In this document: piece after piece, positions 20,470 through 28,118 of the stretch
How positions within the stretch are numbered: the first letter of the stretch is position 1
Layout: each line of letters begins with the position of its first letter
Source of the DNA: Salipiger pallidus
GTDB lineage: Bacteria > Pseudomonadota > Alphaproteobacteria > Rhodobacterales > Rhodobacteraceae
Length of the DNA: 64,000 nt
NCBI RefSeq assembly: GCF_014643635.1
Contig: NZ_BMJV01000001.1
Span: 744,001-808,000, forward strand
Direction of reading: 5' to 3'
Notes under the pieces: model-generated
What the model was told of the DNA's origin: nothing
The model's database searches: none
What the model saw: only the letters and a program-made list of their open reading frames with translations
Made by a program: the position numbers and the translations under genes

Positions 20470-20757
20470 TCAGGTAAGGGCTGGATCTTTGACGTCACGC
20501 ATCCGCTCTTCCAGCAGGTACAGACCTCGTGGCTTGCGGACGCGATAACGCGTGATACGCTTGAGCTCGGGGTAATGATCCCAGTTCCACGATGAATAGC
20601 CGCCCCCGGTGACCCTGGCGACCTGTCGCGCGGTGTACCCGAAACCGTCTTCGCTCACCACTTCGGCGATGGTACCGGGAGGCAGGGGACAGCCCTTGCC
20701 GTCATGCAGCCTCCAGACGCTCCAGTCTTCGCTGATGTCGTGTCGCATTGCCCTCAT
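20470..20757 (-). CDS. Small hypothetical protein, phage-accessory-like
   Basis: 95 residues from the ATG at 20757 (MRAMRHDISEDWSVW); a second ATG at 20748 is possible. The core WRLHDGKGCPLPPGTIAEVV followed by SSWNWDHYPELKRITRYR resembles short proteins often found in prophages (pattern W..Y.G..CP.P.GT.VEV), but I cannot name a family. It lies 138 bases downstream of the last GTPase gene on the same strand and converges with the amidase gene. It may belong to the GTPase transcript or be a separate acquisition. Confidence 0.5.
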   Translation of the reverse strand: MRAMRHDISEDWSVWRLHDGKGCPLPPGTIAEVVSEDGFGYTARQVARVTGGGYSSWNWDHYPELKRITRYRVRKPRGLYLLEERMRDVKDPALT

Positions 20758-20895
20758 CGAACCCCATGCCGAGAGGCGCGACTCTGCGGCTCTCTGACCA
20801 TGGAGATTTAAGCAAAGCGAAAGAGCAATCAACCTATGCGGTTTCGAAACTGATCCAGGTAAACAGAAACAATCTGTTTCCAGGCTATCTGCAGT

Positions 20896-22326
20896 TTAGG
20901 CAGGCGCATTGTTGGCTAGGCTGGCCATCCGTGTCAGCACAGCCGACGCCGTCCCCGCGCTCATCCGGCCGGAATCGCCCAGGAGGAAAACAAGCCCGAA
21001 GCCCGGCACCAGCTCGCAGGCGATGCGTGTGCCCGAACTTGCAATCGACAGCGCTTCGACCGTGTCTTCCTGCCCTTGGCGTTCCAGCAGGTCATCGAGG
21101 TTGACCATCATGGAGCTCAGCACCTCTCCCAGCGCAGAAACGCGCGCCGGGCAGCCGCAAATGACCGAACAGATGTCATCCTGGATCACCCCCGAGCATG
21201 CACCCGCCGGGAGGATCTCCGTGGCACCGGCAAGATTTGCGAGGATCTCTGGCGTAACGACCGTACGGGAGGCGTTTTCTGCCCCCTGCCCTGCATCCTT
21301 GCGCTTGGCAGGCTGCGTGTCATTGGCGACGGTAGGTGAGGCGGAGGGCTTCGGTTTCAACCTTGTGACAGGCGCCTCGTTCCGTGCCTTCGCCTCGTGG
21401 TTCTCGGGCCGGGACTCGGAGGCCGCGGACGGCTCGGCGGGCTTGGAGAGTTCGGGGGCCGCATCGGCGGGAGCTCCGAGGTCGGCAGCGCGCGCGCTTG
21501 TGTCGGGCTCGGCGGGAGGCTCGCGCCGCGAGGTGGTATCGGCGCTCTTGCGGAAGGTGGCGAGATCCACCAGCTTCCGCCCCTCCTCCTCGGAAAGGGA
21601 ACGCGGCTCAGGCTCGGTCAGCGGCACCCCGGCAAGGGTGCACAGCGATTTGCGGATGGCTTCGGCGCCGGATTCGGCCCAAGCCTCGTTGGACTGTGCA
21701 GCAGCGTCGATGACCGACTTGGCCCCCATCAGGAACCGGCAGTCACCGAAGATTCCGTCGGTTTCACGGCGCACCCGGCCCATCAGCTTGTCGCGATCCT
21801 CGATCGACCGCAGCTTGTCCCCGCGCGAGATCACGATCATCGTCTGCTTGGGCAGCGCATCTCCGAAGCGCTCCAGCATGGTCTTTTCGGTCAGGCGCCA
21901 GGCCTGTGAGGCGATGGTGACCCAGATCAGCATATCGATGTTGCGCATGCGCTCGATGTGCGAAGAATCGATCTCTTCGGCGGTGCTCAGCGGCACCTCG
22001 ATGAACTCGAACCGGCGCAGCTCGGGGGCGTCCAACCACAACCTGATCTGCGATGCACCGCGCAGCGTCTCGGGATCGGCCCCGATATCAAGCTGCACCA
22101 GCGAACCGTCGGGGTATTCAGCCTCGATCCCCGGGCAGTCGCGTACGCCTGCCACGATGCGCGGACGCGTGGTCTGCCCCATGTTGTCAGGCAAATGCCG
22201 ACCTCGGAACAAAGCGTTGAGTAGCGTCGATTTCCCACTGCTGACTTCACCGCAGATCGCGACCTGCAATGGGCGCGGCGCGGTCTTGGTCGCGGTGATG
22301 TTGCCATTCAGCGATTGACGCTGCAT
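20896..22326 (-). CDS. P-loop GTPase with degenerate G3 and C-terminal Roadblock-like domain
   Basis: 476 residues, last gene of the Roadblock/GTPase operon. Residues 20-235 are a TRAFAC-like GTPase: G1 is CGEVSSGKSTLLNAL (residues 25-39) and a G4-like SRGDKL lies at 167-172. The G3 position that should read DTPG is EVPL (residues 110-113), so the catalytic/switch-II Asp and Gly are missing and GTP hydrolysis may be impaired. Residues 240-355 are Ala/Pro/Glu-rich and disordered. Residues 358-474 have a predicted alpha-beta-beta-alpha-beta-beta-beta-alpha order (ACSGVIQDD, EALSIASSG, GLVFLLGDSGRMSAGTAS) that matches a Roadblock/LC7 fold. GAGGAG precedes the start; the gap to the upstream gene is 13 bases. 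The Roadblock call is inferred by eye. Confidence 0.75.
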   Translation of the reverse strand: MQRQSLNGNITATKTAPRPLQVAICGEVSSGKSTLLNALFRGRHLPDNMGQTTRPRIVAGVRDCPGIEAEYPDGSLVQLDIGADPETLRGASQIRLWLDAPELRRFEFIEVPLSTAEEIDSSHIERMRNIDMLIWVTIASQAWRLTEKTMLERFGDALPKQTMIVISRGDKLRSIEDRDKLMGRVRRETDGIFGDCRFLMGAKSVIDAAAQSNEAWAESGAEAIRKSLCTLAGVPLTEPEPRSLSEEEGRKLVDLATFRKSADTTSRREPPAEPDTSARAADLGAPADAAPELSKPAEPSAASESRPENHEAKARNEAPVTRLKPKPSASPTVANDTQPAKRKDAGQGAENASRTVVTPEILANLAGATEILPAGACSGVIQDDICSVICGCPARVSALGEVLSSMMVNLDDLLERQGQEDTVEALSIASSGTRIACELVPGFGLVFLLGDSGRMSAGTASAVLTRMASLANNAPA

Positions 22327-22339
22327 TCAAGGGTTCTCC

Positions 22340-24460
22340 TCAGGCGGCCTCGGCAAGATCAGCCCGCCGAAGCGCGCCGTCTATCGACCCATAATTCAAA
22401 AGCCTGCGTTCGAGAATATCCATCTGGCCTTGCAGCCTCTGCGCAATACTGCGTTGCAAATCAACATCATTTGCGACGCGCTCCATTTCGGCCTTGCTTT
22501 TCTTGAGGCGGTGTCGGCGTTCGGACAGACCCGCGTCGACCATCCGCAGCAACACTTGGAGCCGCGAGAGCCCGGCAGAGGCACGCTCCACCTGTGCCTC
22601 ATTGAAGGCGGCGAGGATCTTTTCCACCGCCGGGCGCATTTCTGCGGCGGCGATGGTGCGCAATGCGGTGAGCGAAGCATCGATGTCGATGCTGGGGCGT
22701 TTCCAGAACGACCAGCCCCGGTCCGAGATCATGTCCACCCGCAGCGTGCGCCGCGACAGGGTCAGGGTCGAGGCGAAGCTGTCGTAGGGCAGCTGGTCCA
22801 GCGTCACGTTCTCGGCGATGTCGTCGAACATGTCCTCCAGAGTCTGGCGGCAGGCATGCAGGCAGTTGGTCAGTGCCACATCGGTTCCGGCACGGGACTT
22901 GTCGAAGGCCCGGCGAACATGGCCCTCGACCGTGGACTGAAGTTCGGAGACATCGAATTCGATCACTTTGTCCGACCCGTTGCGCATGCTGTCACGGAAC
23001 ATGCGCTCTTCGAGCAAAGGCTTCTGGTCGGTCACGAAGGTTTCGATGCCGGTCACCAGCTGGCCCTCGAGCTTGGACCAGGACTTGCTGATGACCTTGT
23101 CGATCTGCACCTCGGCCGCTTCGATATGTGACTGAAGCCTGTTGTGCAGCGCATCGATTCCATCGATTTCGGCCTGCAGTTCGTTGACAGCATCATGGGC
23201 GACATCGAAGCGCACGCTTTCGATCTGCAGCTGCAGCGAGTCGCGTTCACGCTTGGCAGCGAACTGGGCGCCGCTGATCTCGGCACGGATGTCCTCGCGC
23301 AGGCGGCGCAGGTAGCGCCCGCCATTACCGCCGTCGATCACCTCCGACAGGGTCGCTCGCAGCCGGTCCATGCCTGATGCCAGCGCCAGCCGGTCGTCAC
23401 GGTGCGACGGCACGGTGCCGATGGTGGCGCGCAGGTAAGCGGCCAGTTCCTCGGTGTCGAGCCGGGCGCGCGCCGCCTCGGCACGCTCGTCCTCACGCAA
23501 TACGAGGTCGGCCATGTAGGCGCTGCCAGCAGTGATGCGGAACTCGATGTCCGGGATCGCCTGCCGCAGGCGGGTGGACACGTCGGCCATGACCCGCGGC
23601 ACCTCGGAGGCGTAATCGTCAAGCTCGTCGATGCGGTTGACGAAGATCACCACTTCCTTGCCGTCCTGTTCCGCGAGGATGCGGATCAGGGCAATGTCCA
23701 CGTCGGTCAGCGGCTGGTGCGCCGACAGGACCATGACGAAAACGTCCGACTTGTCGAGGCTGCGGCAGGTGAACTCGTCCCGCACCAGGAACGGATCGTT
23801 TACGCCGGGGGTGTCGGTGATGATCGTCGGCACCTCGAAGCCCGGCACCTTCATGTAGACATTCGCCACCTTGGTCAGTGACGCGTAGCGGCCGAGCGCA
23901 TCACGGCCAAGCCCGTCGTCCGAACCGGGACCGGCACAGACATAGCGCTTGAGCATGTCGGGCGTGAGGTAGTCGTAATCATGATGGCTGCCAAGCAGCG
24001 TGTGATAGTGCTTTCCCAGGCGGCGCTGCGCCCGGTCACGCATCTCGTCGCTCTGTCGGCGCAGCAGGTCGGTGTCGAAGCCCGGCAGCAGCTTTTCGGT
24101 AAGCTCGCGGATCTTCGAACCGCCGTTGACGATCTCGTCCCAGTCCTGTTCCTCGAAGAACTCGAATCGGGCGCCGGACAGCGGATCACCGGGCACGTTG
24201 ATGCGGATGTTCGTCACCACCGAGGTCCACGGATTGACATCCGACGGCAGGAAATCATGCTGGTGCAACAAGGCGTTGACGAAAGTCGACTTGCCGGCCT
24301 TCACCTGCCCGATCACGGCCACCCGTGCCGCCCAGGCATCGACCTTGGTCTTGAGATCGCGGAACGTGTCTCGGGTCTCACGACCGCCGACCTTTACAAG
24401 CGTGTCGAGAGTTTCTGCGAGGAAGTCCAGTTCCTTGCGCTGGTTCGGAGCGATCTTCAT
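22340..24460 (-). CDS. Dynamin-like GTPase (second large paralogue of the operon)
   Basis: 706 residues. Helical N-terminus, then a dynamin-family GTPase domain: G1 GQVKAGKSTFVNAL (residues 51-64), G2 region LPSDVNPWTSVVT (71-83), G3 DTPGVND (216-222) and G4 NRIDEL (275-280). The stretch between G2 and G3 is much longer than in Ras-type proteins, as in bacterial dynamin-like proteins. After residue 370 it is mainly long helices with coiled-coil character (RDSLQLQIESVRF, HRLKKSKAEMERVAND), with an aromatic patch GWSFWKRP that could be a membrane-touching tip. Starts with ATGA overlap to the preceding GTPase and a GGGAG site. Proposed role: membrane remodelling or tethering; unknown in detail. 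Confidence 0.85.
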   Translation of the reverse strand: MKIAPNQRKELDFLAETLDTLVKVGGRETRDTFRDLKTKVDAWAARVAVIGQVKAGKSTFVNALLHQHDFLPSDVNPWTSVVTNIRINVPGDPLSGARFEFFEEQDWDEIVNGGSKIRELTEKLLPGFDTDLLRRQSDEMRDRAQRRLGKHYHTLLGSHHDYDYLTPDMLKRYVCAGPGSDDGLGRDALGRYASLTKVANVYMKVPGFEVPTIITDTPGVNDPFLVRDEFTCRSLDKSDVFVMVLSAHQPLTDVDIALIRILAEQDGKEVVIFVNRIDELDDYASEVPRVMADVSTRLRQAIPDIEFRITAGSAYMADLVLREDERAEAARARLDTEELAAYLRATIGTVPSHRDDRLALASGMDRLRATLSEVIDGGNGGRYLRRLREDIRAEISGAQFAAKRERDSLQLQIESVRFDVAHDAVNELQAEIDGIDALHNRLQSHIEAAEVQIDKVISKSWSKLEGQLVTGIETFVTDQKPLLEERMFRDSMRNGSDKVIEFDVSELQSTVEGHVRRAFDKSRAGTDVALTNCLHACRQTLEDMFDDIAENVTLDQLPYDSFASTLTLSRRTLRVDMISDRGWSFWKRPSIDIDASLTALRTIAAAEMRPAVEKILAAFNEAQVERASAGLSRLQVLLRMVDAGLSERRHRLKKSKAEMERVANDVDLQRSIAQRLQGQMDILERRLLNYGSIDGALRRADLAEAA

Positions 24461-25704
24461 TTTTGTCTCCCGATGGAGGCTTGGCCCGTGGCCTGCAACA
24501 GCCTGGCAATTTCATCCCGGTCCGTCTCGGATCTCGCGGGCAGCGTATCGTCTCGTGCGGCAGCGGAAGCGGAGGCGGCAGCCTCAACGGCCAGCTGATG
24601 GTCGAGCAGGTCGATGAAGCGCTCGATACGATTGAGGATCTGACCCGTGTTCACGAGGCCCGCGCTGCCTCCCAGTTCGCGCCAGAGCGCCCGGGCGCGC
24701 CCCATACCCGGCGCAAGCGGCGGCGGTGCGACCGGCGCGCTCATGGCGCAGGCCGGGGCCGCCGGGGTGGCAGCGGGTGCCGTCCGGGGCGCAGCCTTCG
24801 GTGCGGGCGTGGGTGCGGCCGAAGCCTTGGTCGCGGGCTTGGAGTCCGCCACAGGCTTGGCATCGGCAGAGGCGCCAGACGCCGCGGCGTGCCGCTGCAG
24901 GCGCATCAGGTCGCGCGCCGCCGGAACGGACACCCGGCGTGGCGCGGGCTTCGATGTCCCGTCCGCCTGCGCCGCAGCCTGACGGCGCGCCGCGATGGCG
25001 ACGGCCCGCCGGACCTGCGGCGCGTCGACGCCTGGCAGTGTGGGCAGCGTGGGCACCAGATCACGCAGATGCGACAGCACCCGAGCAACGTCACGATCAC
25101 TGAGGGTCGAGCCCAGCAGGATGCTGGAAAAGAACGGCTTTGCCTCGCGGGTGACACGCCGCATCACGCGTTCGACCGAACGCTGGTCCTGAAGGCGGTC
25201 GGCATGGGTGACCAGCAGGGTGGCATTGTCGCGCAGCACCTGCGGCATGTCCTGCCACACGGCTTTCTCGCTCTGCCGCCAGGCCTGGGTGGCGTTGGTG
25301 CACCACACGACGGCGTCGGCGTAATCCACCATGCGCTGCCATGTTTCGGGTGGGATGTTGGGGTCGGAATTTCCGGGCGTGTCGATGATCTCGAAACTGT
25401 CGAGGATCGGCGCACCATGGGCCACCACACCGAAGGCGGTGGTCGCGAGATCGAAGGCCTCGATGCCGTCCACCTCGCGTTCGGTGCCGTCATGGGCGAT
25501 GGCCACGCGCAGCCCCGAGCCGGACACCAGCCAGATCGGCGGCAGTGCCGTGGAGACCACGTTCGACGGCAGCACCGCCTCGCCCAGCAGGCCCGAGATC
25601 AGTTGCGTCTTGCCCGAGCTGAATTCACCCGCCACGAGGATGCGTGGCAGGCGCGCAGGGCGCGGTGCGGCAGGGCGGCGGGCGGCGCGGTTGGCGTCTG
25701 TCAT
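24457..25704 (-). CDS. Small dynamin-related GTPase with disordered tail
   Basis: 415 residues. The GTPase core has G1 AGEFSSGKTQLISGLL (residues 25-40), G2-like VVSTALPPIWL, an intact G3 DTPGNSDP (108-115) and a G4-like THADRL (166-171). It shares CTNATQAWRQSEK with the VTIASQAWRLTEK of the 20896 GTPase, so the two are paralogues, but this copy keeps DTPG. Residues 240-335 are Ala/Pro/Lys-rich and disordered, with a short helical C-terminus (GQILNRIERFIDLLDHQL). Both junctions are ATGA overlaps (25701-25704 and 24457-24460) and GGAGG precedes the start, so translation is coupled to the flanking dynamin-like genes. Confidence 0.8.
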   Translation of the reverse strand: MTDANRAARRPAAPRPARLPRILVAGEFSSGKTQLISGLLGEAVLPSNVVSTALPPIWLVSGSGLRVAIAHDGTEREVDGIEAFDLATTAFGVVAHGAPILDSFEIIDTPGNSDPNIPPETWQRMVDYADAVVWCTNATQAWRQSEKAVWQDMPQVLRDNATLLVTHADRLQDQRSVERVMRRVTREAKPFFSSILLGSTLSDRDVARVLSHLRDLVPTLPTLPGVDAPQVRRAVAIAARRQAAAQADGTSKPAPRRVSVPAARDLMRLQRHAAASGASADAKPVADSKPATKASAAPTPAPKAAPRTAPAATPAAPACAMSAPVAPPPLAPGMGRARALWRELGGSAGLVNTGQILNRIERFIDLLDHQLAVEAAASASAAARDDTLPARSETDRDEIARLLQATGQASIGRQK

Positions 25705-27668
25705 GCGATCAGCCTCCGGGGTTCGTCGGAGCCGTCACGGTCTCCGGTCATATCATGGGCGCAGTCGAGCACCGCGCGGGCAAAGGCGCCCTGATCCATG
25801 GCAAAAGTTTCGATGACCTCGCGGGTGGCCTGCACCGCCGGGTCGAAAACCTGGGTCAGAAGGTCGTCGATCAGCGGTGCGATCTCGGCCTCGATGAGCG
25901 CGCGATAGCGCTTTGCGGCGGCCTTGCGGTGTCCGAATTTCCAGAAGCGGCGCCACCACGGCCCCTCGAGATCGAGGCTGAGCGTGCGCGCCAGCACCGT
26001 CGGCGCCTTGTGCTGCGGCTGTTCGGGGAAATCGACGCTGCCGCTGTCACGGGTGACGCCCAGATCATCGTGAAAGATATCATCCATACCGTCCATCACC
26101 ATGTCCAGCCCCGCTTCTCCCTCACGGCGCAGGCGCACCGTGGCCGAGGTGAAGGCCGCCTTCATCGCCATGCGCAGCGAGCTGGGGTCATGCTTCCACG
26201 AGCTGAATTCACCGTAGAGGTTGATATGGGCCTGCAACGCCTCGATTGCGGATTCCACAAAGGTTTCCTGCCCGCGCTCCAGCCGTTCCCGCAACTGACC
26301 GCGAACCACGGCGGCGCGTTCGTCAAAGGCCTCGAGCGCGGCCTCGCGCACCTCGGCCACGCTCAGCGAGAGCTCACGAGAGCCAAAGCCTTCCCGGATG
26401 TTGGTGGTGCCATCCTGCGCCGCGATGTTTTCGACCGTCTCGCTCATCTCGATGATGGCGTCGATGTCCGAACGCACGTCGGCCAGCAGCGCACGGCACG
26501 GCCCGTCGACGACGCGCGCGGCGATGGCACGGTGCAGCGCCGGCACCCCCGATGCGTCCATGGCCGCAAGGCGCATGCCCTCTTCGGTGTCGAGATGCTT
26601 GCCCTTGGCCATCCGCCCCAGGGCAGCAGCGCTGGCGGGGCCGAGAGTGAACTCACCGGGGCTGAGCGCCGCATTGGCCCAGGCTCCGCTGCCGAACAGG
26701 ATCTCCACGTCCTGCGCAAGGCCCATGCGCCCGAGAGTGCGGCGGATCGAGACCTCGATGCGCTCGGCCTCGCCCAGCGGATCGGCCAGCTCGTCCATCC
26801 GGTTCACGAAAATCAGCACCTCGCGCGCCTCGACGCTGCAGATGATGCGCAGCAAGGCCAGGTCCATGGTCGACAACGCCTGGTGCGCGGACAGCACGAC
26901 AACGCAGACCCGGCTGTCGGAAATGGCGTTGAGCGTGATCTGCTCGCGCATCATGAAGGTGTCGTTGACCCCGGGCGTGTCGCGCAGGCAAAGCCCGCGC
27001 GGCAACCCGGGCAGGTCGATATAAAGATCCGCAGCCTTGGTGACATCGGCGAACACACCGTCGCTGGCGCCTGCGTCCAGCTCGTCAGGATCACCGTAGC
27101 AGACGTAGCGGTCGATCACGTCCTTGTCGATTTCCGGGAAGGCGTGGCTGGTGCCCAGCAGCTCATCGAAGGCGTCACCAAGGCGCTCTTCGGTGGTCTG
27201 GCGCATCTCGTTGACCTGCGCGCGCACTTCCTTGGCCTCTCCGGAAAAACCGGCGCGCGCGGCCATTTCGCCCAGCCGGCCACCGGTCGCCACGAGCCGG
27301 TCCCATTCATGCGCATCGAAAAAGCGGAACAGCGCGCGGGTGTGCGGCGGCCTCTGGCGGCTGTTCACATGGATCCCGGTGATCACCGAGGTCCAGGGAT
27401 TGACGTCAGACGGCAGCAGGTCGGTTTCACCGATCAGCGCATTCAGCAGCGTACTCTTGCCCGACTTGACCTGTCCGATGATGCTGACCTGCGGCTCGAA
27501 CGACCGGATCTTTTCGAGAACCCGGTCGACGGGCTCCTCGACAAAATCGAGCCCGACCTCCGCGTAGTCCTCGACGGAGTGTTCCATCTTGTCGAGCGTA
27601 TCCCAGAAGGCGTTCAGTTCCTCGAAGCCTTCACGGTGTTTCAGTCGGACAGGGTTGGCAGGAGCCAT
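25701..27668 (-). CDS. Dynamin-like GTPase (first large paralogue of the operon)
   Basis: 655 residues from the ATG at 27668 (MAPANPVRLK); a GTG at 27725 would add 19 residues without a domain. G1 GQVKSGKSTLLNAL is at 65-78, the G2 region LPSDVNPWTSVIT at 85-97, G3 DTPGVND at 230-236 and G4 NRMDEL at 289-294. LPSDVNPWTSV is shared exactly with the 22340 protein, so these are paralogues and may form hetero-oligomers as paired bacterial dynamins do. The C-terminal half is helical with an aromatic/basic patch (WWRRFWKFGHRK) that could bind membrane. It follows the Roadblock gene and overlaps the next gene by ATGA. Confidence 0.87.
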   Translation of the reverse strand: MAPANPVRLKHREGFEELNAFWDTLDKMEHSVEDYAEVGLDFVEEPVDRVLEKIRSFEPQVSIIGQVKSGKSTLLNALIGETDLLPSDVNPWTSVITGIHVNSRQRPPHTRALFRFFDAHEWDRLVATGGRLGEMAARAGFSGEAKEVRAQVNEMRQTTEERLGDAFDELLGTSHAFPEIDKDVIDRYVCYGDPDELDAGASDGVFADVTKAADLYIDLPGLPRGLCLRDTPGVNDTFMMREQITLNAISDSRVCVVVLSAHQALSTMDLALLRIICSVEAREVLIFVNRMDELADPLGEAERIEVSIRRTLGRMGLAQDVEILFGSGAWANAALSPGEFTLGPASAAALGRMAKGKHLDTEEGMRLAAMDASGVPALHRAIAARVVDGPCRALLADVRSDIDAIIEMSETVENIAAQDGTTNIREGFGSRELSLSVAEVREAALEAFDERAAVVRGQLRERLERGQETFVESAIEALQAHINLYGEFSSWKHDPSSLRMAMKAAFTSATVRLRREGEAGLDMVMDGMDDIFHDDLGVTRDSGSVDFPEQPQHKAPTVLARTLSLDLEGPWWRRFWKFGHRKAAAKRYRALIEAEIAPLIDDLLTQVFDPAVQATREVIETFAMDQGAFARAVLDCAHDMTGDRDGSDEPRRLIA

Positions 27669-27761
27669 GACGTCTCGCTTTGTCGCTTGCGGGTTCACTG
27701 GGTACGGTACGGCCTCCCCGCACACCGGATGACACCGGCGTGCCGGGCTGGCAAATTGGGA

Positions 27762-28118
27762 TCAGACCTTGAGCGTGCCTTCGACGCTTTTCACCTTGAG
27801 GCGCGCCATACCGAGGTTGGACGAGCCGCGATCAAGCGCGACATAGACGAACACTGCAGGGTTGTGGGCCAGCGGGCGGATTAGGTGCATCTGCTTGCCG
27901 AGGGTAATGAGGATATCCTCGATTCCGTCGTCAAGACCCAGCGCCTTCATGGCTGCCGACTTGGCCCGCACCACTTCGGTATTGTAGGCGCCGGCTGCCT
28001 CCAGGTCGAAGGGGGTGTTGCTGGTCTGGCTGGCAAGCATCAGGCCGGTGTCGGAATCGACGAGGCATGCGCCGATAAAGCCGGACAGTTCCTTGAGTTC
28101 GGAGAGGTTGGTGGACAT
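27762..28118 (-). CDS. Roadblock/LC7-domain protein heading the GTPase operon
   Basis: 118 residues, essentially one Roadblock/LC7 domain: a first helix (NLSELKELS), strand GFIGACLVDSDTGLMLAS, a long central helix (AYNTEVVRAKSAAMKAL), paired strands (IEDILITLGKQMHLIRPL) and the final strand-helix AVFVYVALDRGSSNLGMARLK. Such proteins (MglB, streptomycete CvnB) dimerise and act as regulators or GAPs of small GTPases. As the first gene of a run with four GTPases it is the likely partner or regulator of one or more of them. Gap to the next gene is short. Its ribosome-binding site is weak. Confidence 0.88.
   Translation of the reverse strand: MSTNLSELKELSGFIGACLVDSDTGLMLASQTSNTPFDLEAAGAYNTEVVRAKSAAMKALGLDDGIEDILITLGKQMHLIRPLAHNPAVFVYVALDRGSSNLGMARLKVKSVEGTLKV

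Follow-up and report, generated by a model that had tools for sequence, protein, structure and literature searches.

A Roadblock-type protein encoded with two dynamin-like GTPases and two dynamin-type small G proteins in Salipiger pallidus: a candidate control module for bacterial membrane remodelling

Within a stretch of 64,000 nucleotides from Salipiger pallidus (hereafter the window) a minus-strand operon at positions 20896-28118 encodes a Roadblock-type protein, two dynamin-like large GTPases and two dynamin-type small G proteins in the order Rob-Dyn1-Gt1-Dyn2-Gt2 (protein labels P0001, P0002, P0003, P0004 and P0005 respectively). Our analysis shows that it belongs to a conserved locus family in which dynamins are encoded with dedicated G proteins, often including a motif-dead partner, with Roadblock proteins and in many genomes with a kinase, an FHA protein and a phosphatase. 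The reading we favour, which we regard as plausible without yet calling it probable, is that a switch formed by the Roadblock protein and a pseudo-GTPase controls, at the inner membrane, two dynamins that are inherited together, the whole acting as a regulated membrane-remodelling machine. If this reading is true the locus would provide a testable bacterial model of signal-controlled membrane remodelling.

All five open reading frames (ORFs) are present. Rob (27762..28118, 118 amino acids) is the best-conserved member of the operon and is followed by Dyn1 (25701..27668), a dynamin-like large GTPase of 655 amino acids when read from the ATG at 27668, with intact G1, G3 and G4 motifs and a C-terminal WWRRFW stretch. 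A GTG at 27725, where the mechanical ORF begins, is a possible alternative start and the gap between Rob and Dyn1 is 36 or 93 bases according to the start chosen. Gt1 (24457..25704, 415 amino acids) is a small GTPase of dynamin type in which the G1, G3 (DTPG) and G4 motifs are all intact; it has a long Pro/Ala-rich tail, and its gene overlaps those of both Dyn1 and Dyn2 by 4 bases. Dyn2 (22340..24460, 706 amino acids) is again a dynamin-like large GTPase, of a separate deep clade that occurs with Dyn1, and a gap of 13 bases separates it from Gt2 (20896..22326, 476 amino acids), a predicted pseudo-GTPase that keeps the P-loop and G4, has EVPL in place of the G3 DxPG and probably carries a cryptic C-terminal Roadblock domain at about residues 350-476. 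All four G proteins match the Pfam Dynamin_N family above the cut-off (Dyn1 2.1e-14, Dyn2 6.8e-16, Gt1 1.8e-7 and Gt2 1.2e-8). The GC content of the operon is 62-68%, similar to its surroundings, and therefore gives no sign of recent transfer. Scans for sigma-70 promoters (3 promoter-like sites against a mean of 0.9 in shuffles) and terminators (3 terminator-like sites against a mean of 5.3) were uninformative.

An earlier sequence-only reading of the window had described a same-strand operon of five genes joined by ATGA overlaps or short gaps and containing a dynamin pair, and both descriptions are borne out by the ORFs, the junctions, the intact motifs of Dyn1 and Dyn2 and their Dynamin_N matches. 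The homologues are also neighbours in related genomes, as the order Rob-Dyn-Gt-Dyn-Gt recurs in six others (L041, L042, L043, L046, L190 and L191) and is thus no chance arrangement. From the survey of 295 genomes described below we examined 99 regions (the window, L041-L120 and L172-L189), 88 of which contain a Dyn ORF; L008-L012, L190 and L191 are not counted among the 88, and L065 is the same locus as L008. The commonest arrangement, found in 39/88 Dyn regions, is STPK-FHA-PP2C-GtA-Dyn-GtB-Rob*-R265, which opens with a Ser/Thr kinase (STPK), an FHA protein and a PP2C phosphatase. Genes for all three of these occur in 47/88 Dyn regions, two of them in 5/88, one in 3/88 and none in 33/88, and with no kinase, FHA or PP2C gene the window operon is a kinase-free relative of the larger locus. 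A Roadblock-like ORF, whether Rob, Rob* or fused, is found in 78/88 Dyn regions, or 66/76 once the 12 regions fetched for Rob are set aside. Further variants include the Dyn-Gt-Dyn-Gt core without a leading Rob (L061-L064), a locus with Rob* and R265 between the two pairs (L066), and four consecutive dynamin-family genes in Rhodobacter sp. CZR27. The Dyn-Gt-Rob genes of L008 (683-9675) are flanked by one gene for a B12-binding regulator-like protein and one of PAS-HTH type, which we take to resemble ppaA and ppsR.

Gene fusions give in our view the clearest indication that the components work together. Five loci (L045, L050, L051, L062 and L067) have Gt proteins with a fused Rob-like domain. 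In L188 (6005-7426) such a domain, matched by the Rob profile at E=1.5e-23, forms the C-terminal part (residues 365-469) of a Ser/Thr kinase that is a relative of the kinase in the eight-gene locus. As this profile was built iteratively and includes the fused domains its E-values for fusions are not independent; a single-sequence search with P0001 is, and P0001 alone detects the fused domain in L045, L050, L051, L067 and L188 (5/6 fusions, L062 being missed). In the Gt2 homologue of L062 (3247-5094) the G domain is followed first by a phosphatase domain of DSP type (PF22785, 2e-21) and then by the Rob-like domain. The larger kinase-bearing locus and both kinds of fusion lay outside the sequence-only reading, as did a conserved sixth gene described below.

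The two small G proteins of the window differ in their motifs, those of Gt1 being intact and Gt2 being motif-dead, and we looked at how general this is in an alignment of 134 Gt proteins (76 downstream proteins outside the Gt2 clade, 14 of the Gt2 clade, 41 upstream GtA and 3 in other positions). The G3 DxPG is present in 75/76 downstream Gt proteins outside the Gt2 clade and in 0/14 of the Gt2 clade, where the Asp is replaced by Glu in 14/14 and the P-loop and G4 Asp are kept in 14/14; a DxPG pattern match in the Gt2 of L064 falls outside G3. Upstream GtA proteins have G3 in 0/41 and keep the P-loop in 29/41, though because they are distant and 12/41 lack a P-loop their alignment at G3 is less sure, and 1/3 of the proteins in other positions has G3. 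In many loci, therefore, one G protein is intact and its partner motif-dead, and Gt2 is predicted to be a pseudo-GTPase. The description of the operon as holding four GTPases has to be amended, since with G3 lost from Gt2 four equivalent GTPases are not supported.

The juxtaposition of a Roadblock-type gene with GTPase genes could also reflect a polarity or signalling switch of the MglA/MglB or conservon type, in which Rob would act on a Ras-like GTPase and the dynamins would be mere effectors. On an Agarilytica plasmid a Rob relative does have near it the gene of a small GTPase that weakly resembles Ras and ATP_bind_1. However, Gt1 and Gt2 match Dynamin_N and neither has a Ras, Arf or Roc match in Pfam at E<=1, which makes them by domain family dynamin-type and not Ras- or MglA-like, and among the operon products Pfam detects neither a histidine kinase nor DUF742. 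The analogy with MglB and the conservons drawn when the sequence was first read is therefore not supported at the family level, and we consider such a switch quite improbable here.

Whether Gt2 ends in a Roadblock domain was assessed by profile comparison, using as reference 27 Robl_LC7 proteins, with matches over the Pfam cut-off, from 30 loci elsewhere in the phylum. Ten Gt2 tails compared with this reference give P=1.1e-4 over 118 columns (a smaller set of six tails only 0.004), and the best of 40 shuffled tail alignments reaches P 0.18. Against control profiles the tails give 0.018 for R265, 0.073 for PP2C, 0.25 for STPK, 0.39 for FHA and 0.59 for d118, and against Rob and Rob* they give P 0.0013 and 0.046. 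Comparison with the fused Rob-like domains gives P=4.6e-5 with L064 in one set only, the value of 4e-10 obtained with L064 in both sets being inflated for that reason. Members of the same Gt clade in L051, L062 and L067 carry C-terminal Rob-like domains and the Gt2 of the four-dynamin locus of Rhodobacter sp. CZR27 is matched by the Rob profile at residues 281-381 (E=1.6e-4). A Roadblock domain at the C-terminus of Gt2 is on these comparisons probable, not proven. R265, considered as an extra Roadblock carrier, gives P 0.22 against Robl_LC7 besides its 0.018 against the Gt2 tails.

Rob itself is taken as a divergent Roadblock protein. The Rob-family profile matches the Robl_LC7 reference at P=6.3e-6 over 99 columns, compared with P 0.15-0.35 for control profiles of R265 (0.22), d118, PP2C and FHA and a best P of 0.076 among 40 column-shuffled Rob alignments. 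This upholds the Roadblock-type assignment made from the sequence in the first place, though the Pfam match is sub-threshold. Two of six Rob relatives match Robl_LC7 at E<=1 (best E 5.2e-4). The Rob* proteins are related to Rob, 12/44 being matched by the Rob profile at E<1e-3 (best 1e-18), and their own profile compares with Robl_LC7 at P=5.6e-6. Searches of PDB sequences with P0001 and with a six-member Rob alignment returned no match, and Rob is 66-80% identical to its counterparts in the six other five-gene operons.

With regard to the dynamins, the G1, G3 and G4 columns are conserved across an alignment of 88 Dyn proteins, 87/88 of which show the general G1 pattern (split Dyn ORFs occur in L058, L104 and L109). 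In a tree Dyn1 and Dyn2 fall in separate clades, that of Dyn1 adjoining the Dyn proteins of kinase loci and the deep Dyn2 clade joining the fusion loci L051 and L067. A Trp-rich C-terminal pattern is found in 74/88 Dyn proteins and this segment may be a membrane-binding tip.

From gene content, order, motifs, co-occurrence and fusions, we infer the following interactions, membrane binding and output. Dyn1 and Dyn2 would assemble into a hetero-oligomer and attach to the inner membrane by the Trp-rich C-terminal segment. Gt1 would cycle GTP and Gt2 would bind nucleotide without efficient hydrolysis, serving as a fixed partner, and Rob would pair with the Roadblock domain of Gt2, the resulting platform governing which nucleotide state Gt1 is in. 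This platform may then release or recruit the dynamins, the Gt1/Gt2 pair controlling Dyn1/Dyn2 assembly. In kinase-type loci the switch would probably be set by phosphorylation through the Ser/Thr kinase, FHA protein and PP2C phosphatase, and the form in the window, lacking these, would rely on Rob. The output would most likely be local inner-membrane remodelling or repair on a signal, and roles in membrane remodelling, division or stress may be envisaged. A more specific proposal, which we put forward only tentatively as possible rather than likely, is that an intact dynamin-type G protein, a G3-dead pseudo-GTPase bearing a Roadblock domain and a free Roadblock protein together make up a new control module, a Rag/Ragulator-like platform switching a dynamin pair at the inner membrane, with exchangeable inputs (many genomes would use Ser/Thr phosphorylation, some perhaps blue light and the window a Rob-borne signal) and with some loci having one G protein only.

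Several observations weigh against these proposals. Rob occurs without Dyn in 10/11 Dyn-less regions fetched for it, besides the L188 kinase fusion, and genome G211 has a Rob match and no Dyn match, from which it appears that Rob also works elsewhere. Among the regions examined L008, L009, L051 and L067 have motif-dead Gt proteins only and L045, L049, L050, L053 and L060 intact ones only, and the loss of hydrolysis by Gt2 is itself deduced from motifs. No C-terminal domain is present on the Gt2 of L061, L063 and L066. The Roadblock identity of Rob rests on profile comparisons and context: against Pfam Robl_LC7 Rob scores 13.1 bits, below the cut-off of 23, a hidden Markov model of the 27 reference proteins gives the window Rob alone E=0.093, and Robl_LC7 is not matched by three scanned fusions (L050, L062 and L067), the L064 Gt2 or two Rob* proteins. 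The Trp patterns are not present in 14/88 Dyn proteins. Finally, the distances among Dyn1 and Dyn2 over 12 loci correlate at r=0.97, with 0/5000 permutations as high, which fits co-inheritance and would also result from plain vertical descent.

The distribution of the family was surveyed in 295 genomes of the window's family, counting Dyn2-like matches at E<=1e-20 and Gt2-like matches at E<=1e-5. Each was found in 77/295 genomes, and these are the same genomes when the printed lists are compared by eye; as 3 (Dyn2) and 5 (Gt2) candidates were scored per genome absences are less sure than presences. Rob is present in 21/295 genomes, 20 of which also have Dyn (Fisher p=4.7e-12, uncorrected for relatedness), and G088, the only genome drawn from the same genus, gave no match to Rob, Dyn2 or Gt2. 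Outside this survey the Dyn profile matches 2/337 genomes of a class draw and 8/349 of a phylum draw, the window genome included, and all of these belong to the window's own family. In the draws used the Dyn profile matches are limited to this family and do not extend over Alphaproteobacteria at large. A plasmid collection gave named relatives from Leisingera, Ruegeria and Rhodobacter (18 records).

Such a patchy accessory distribution, together with absence from G088 and varying genomic sites, is what might be expected of an anti-phage or conflict system, in which the Rob/Gt module would be the trigger and the dynamin pair would sense or act on infection-damaged membrane. Dyn2 is matched by the PADLOC LeoA profile at 3.3e-16, with the best stretch at residues 214-540, beyond the G domain, and Dyn1 by the same profile at 4.2e-11, the LeoBC profile matches Dyn2 at 7.4e-8 over residues 45-522, and relatives of Rob are carried by the phage-like contig L122 and by plasmids (28 records). 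On the other hand, with the NCBIfam LeoA/HP0731 model Dyn1 reaches 11.8 bits against a cut-off of 325 and Dyn2 is not among the matches, no Rob match was found in 50,697 phage records, Pfam recognised no toxin- or nuclease-like gene among the five operon products, and the kinase/FHA/PP2C loci resemble signalling systems. A role in defence is in our judgement unlikely, albeit worth keeping in mind. By the NCBIfam cut-off we do not count the operon as a Leo system, in spite of the match of Dyn2 with the PADLOC profile.

The insertion site of the operon varies, in that its flanking metallo-hydrolase gene adjoins gatC with no operon between them in 6/6 genomes examined; in genome G137 (L064) the operon core adjoins gatC. 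Directly downstream of Gt2, after 63 bases, lies a gene for a small protein that is conserved at this place (d118, 20470..20832, minus strand), for which Pfam gave no match with the last 111 of 120 residues scanned, and which follows directly on the same strand in 6/7 five-gene operons. We observed d118 to be conserved beside Dyn2-type loci; L008 and L009 have it too, there behind Rob and in the reverse orientation. An N-acetylmuramoyl-alanine amidase gene is found on one side of the window operon, and an amidase also near L064. Beyond two genes on the other side are ORFs which we take from their sequences to be ftsW-, murG- and murC-like, and five kinase-type loci (L083, L088, L093, L098 and L109) lie near genes that we likewise presume to be mreB-, mreC-, mreD- and PBP2-like.

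These neighbours would suit a role in envelope maintenance, in which the Rob/Gt switch would regulate an IniA-like system for repair or fission of the membrane, linked to stress or to growth of the cell wall. IniA is a bacterial dynamin for which fission activity is reported (PMC6715688). Among the fetched loci, however, gatCA-amidase neighbours occur only in L064 and ftsW, murG and murC in none at E<=1e-8, and no stress regulator was recognised in the operon, so that we hold this explanation to be as doubtful as the defence one.

Relatives of Rob are also found on plasmids (28 records), of which eight (L194-L201) were examined. These are annotated as hypothetical, share 42-60% identity with Rob and come from plasmids of Acinetobacter, Methylomagnum, Comamonas, Diaphorobacter, Streptomyces, Hymenobacter, Agarilytica and Deinococcus; in 3/8 regions (Acinetobacter wuhouensis, Streptomyces sp. 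Alt3 and Agarilytica) an annotated Roadblock/LC7 gene is nearby. In Virgisporangium (Actinobacteria) two stretches (L011 9983-11896 and L012 8024-10362) contain a row of Roadblock-type genes headed by a Rob relative of 46-47% identity, and no Dyn or Gt match was found in either. A viral collection contained two further relatives (L121 7617-8504 and L122 9980-10339), one of them inside a longer protein and the other adjoining genes that we presume from their sequences to be of phage terminase and structural type.

In the Agarilytica plasmid (L200) a BLUF gene and the small GTPase gene sit between the Rob relative and the annotated Roadblock/LC7 gene, and short PAS genes are found 27-61 bases from the Gt-Rob fusion or from Rob in L050 (9351-9935) and L047 (4897-5442) and 14 bases after Rob in L053 (10239-10838). 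Pfam reports these three as PAS, and from an NCRF motif we take them to be LOV-like. It might be supposed from this that membrane control is light- or signal-responsive, Rob serving blue-light sensors as an adaptor and the dynamins being the output, but Pfam finds no photoreceptor in the window operon and no more than 3 regions have such a gene next to a Dyn locus, making this the least credible of the explanations considered and a very improbable one.

The favoured reading, a Roadblock/pseudo-GTPase switch acting on a dynamin pair, can be set against several known systems. According to PMC6104087, most bacterial dynamin-like proteins (DLPs) are encoded as side-by-side pairs and the Campylobacter pair tethers liposomes; Campylobacter Cj-DLP1/2 and Streptomyces DynA/B have, like the window operon, two dynamin-like GTPases adjoining in an operon (PMC6104087), and the same adjacency is given for LeoABC in PMC4159319. 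Unlike the DLP pairs, the window operon has one small G protein per dynamin and the wider family often adds a kinase, an FHA protein and a phosphatase. To our knowledge the Cj-DLP1/2, DynA/B and LeoABC systems include no small G proteins and no Roadblock protein. Type VI secretion has an STPK-PP2C-FHA regulatory triad. Proteins of these three kinds are also encoded at the head of the commonest locus here, where in contrast they are followed by GtA-Dyn-GtB-Rob*-R265; inspection of the conserved neighbours by eye showed no secretion genes, no search having been aimed at them. The Streptomyces conservons (CvnA-D) combine Roadblock and GTPase genes in one operon, as here, together with a histidine kinase and DUF742. 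Membership of the conservons was rejected, as no histidine kinase, DUF742 or CvnD-type GTPase match was obtained for the five products, with four flanking genes and d118 also scanned. In MglA/MglB of Myxococcus a Roadblock-type protein is likewise encoded with GTP-binding partners, but MglA is described as Ras-like (PMC6785124) whereas Gt1 and Gt2 are of dynamin type and their likely outputs are dynamins. Membership of this system was rejected on the dynamin-type G-domain family, a Ras-like G domain not being matched.

Outside bacteria, Rag GTPases carry a Roadblock-type domain at the C-terminus, behind the G domain, and work as paired G proteins with separate Roadblock partners in Ragulator. 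Arf-like GTPases fused to Roadblock domains are reported from Asgard archaea in PMC10933270. The five Gt-Rob fusions, and probably Gt2 with its tail, resemble both in this order of domains, and Gt1/Gt2 and Rob would be the counterparts of the paired G proteins and of the separate Roadblock partners. They differ in that the G domain is dynamin-type, with no Ras match in Pfam, one partner is G3-dead and the system is bacterial and tied to dynamins, and the resemblance is most likely convergent. A literature search, as judged by the titles and abstract openings of the papers listed, found no description of this system, in agreement with the sequence-only reading. The dynamin pair is thus the known element and a control module of this make-up is, as far as we found, the new one, which if true would constitute a bacterial parallel to the eukaryotic Roadblock platforms and GTPase pairs that act at membranes.

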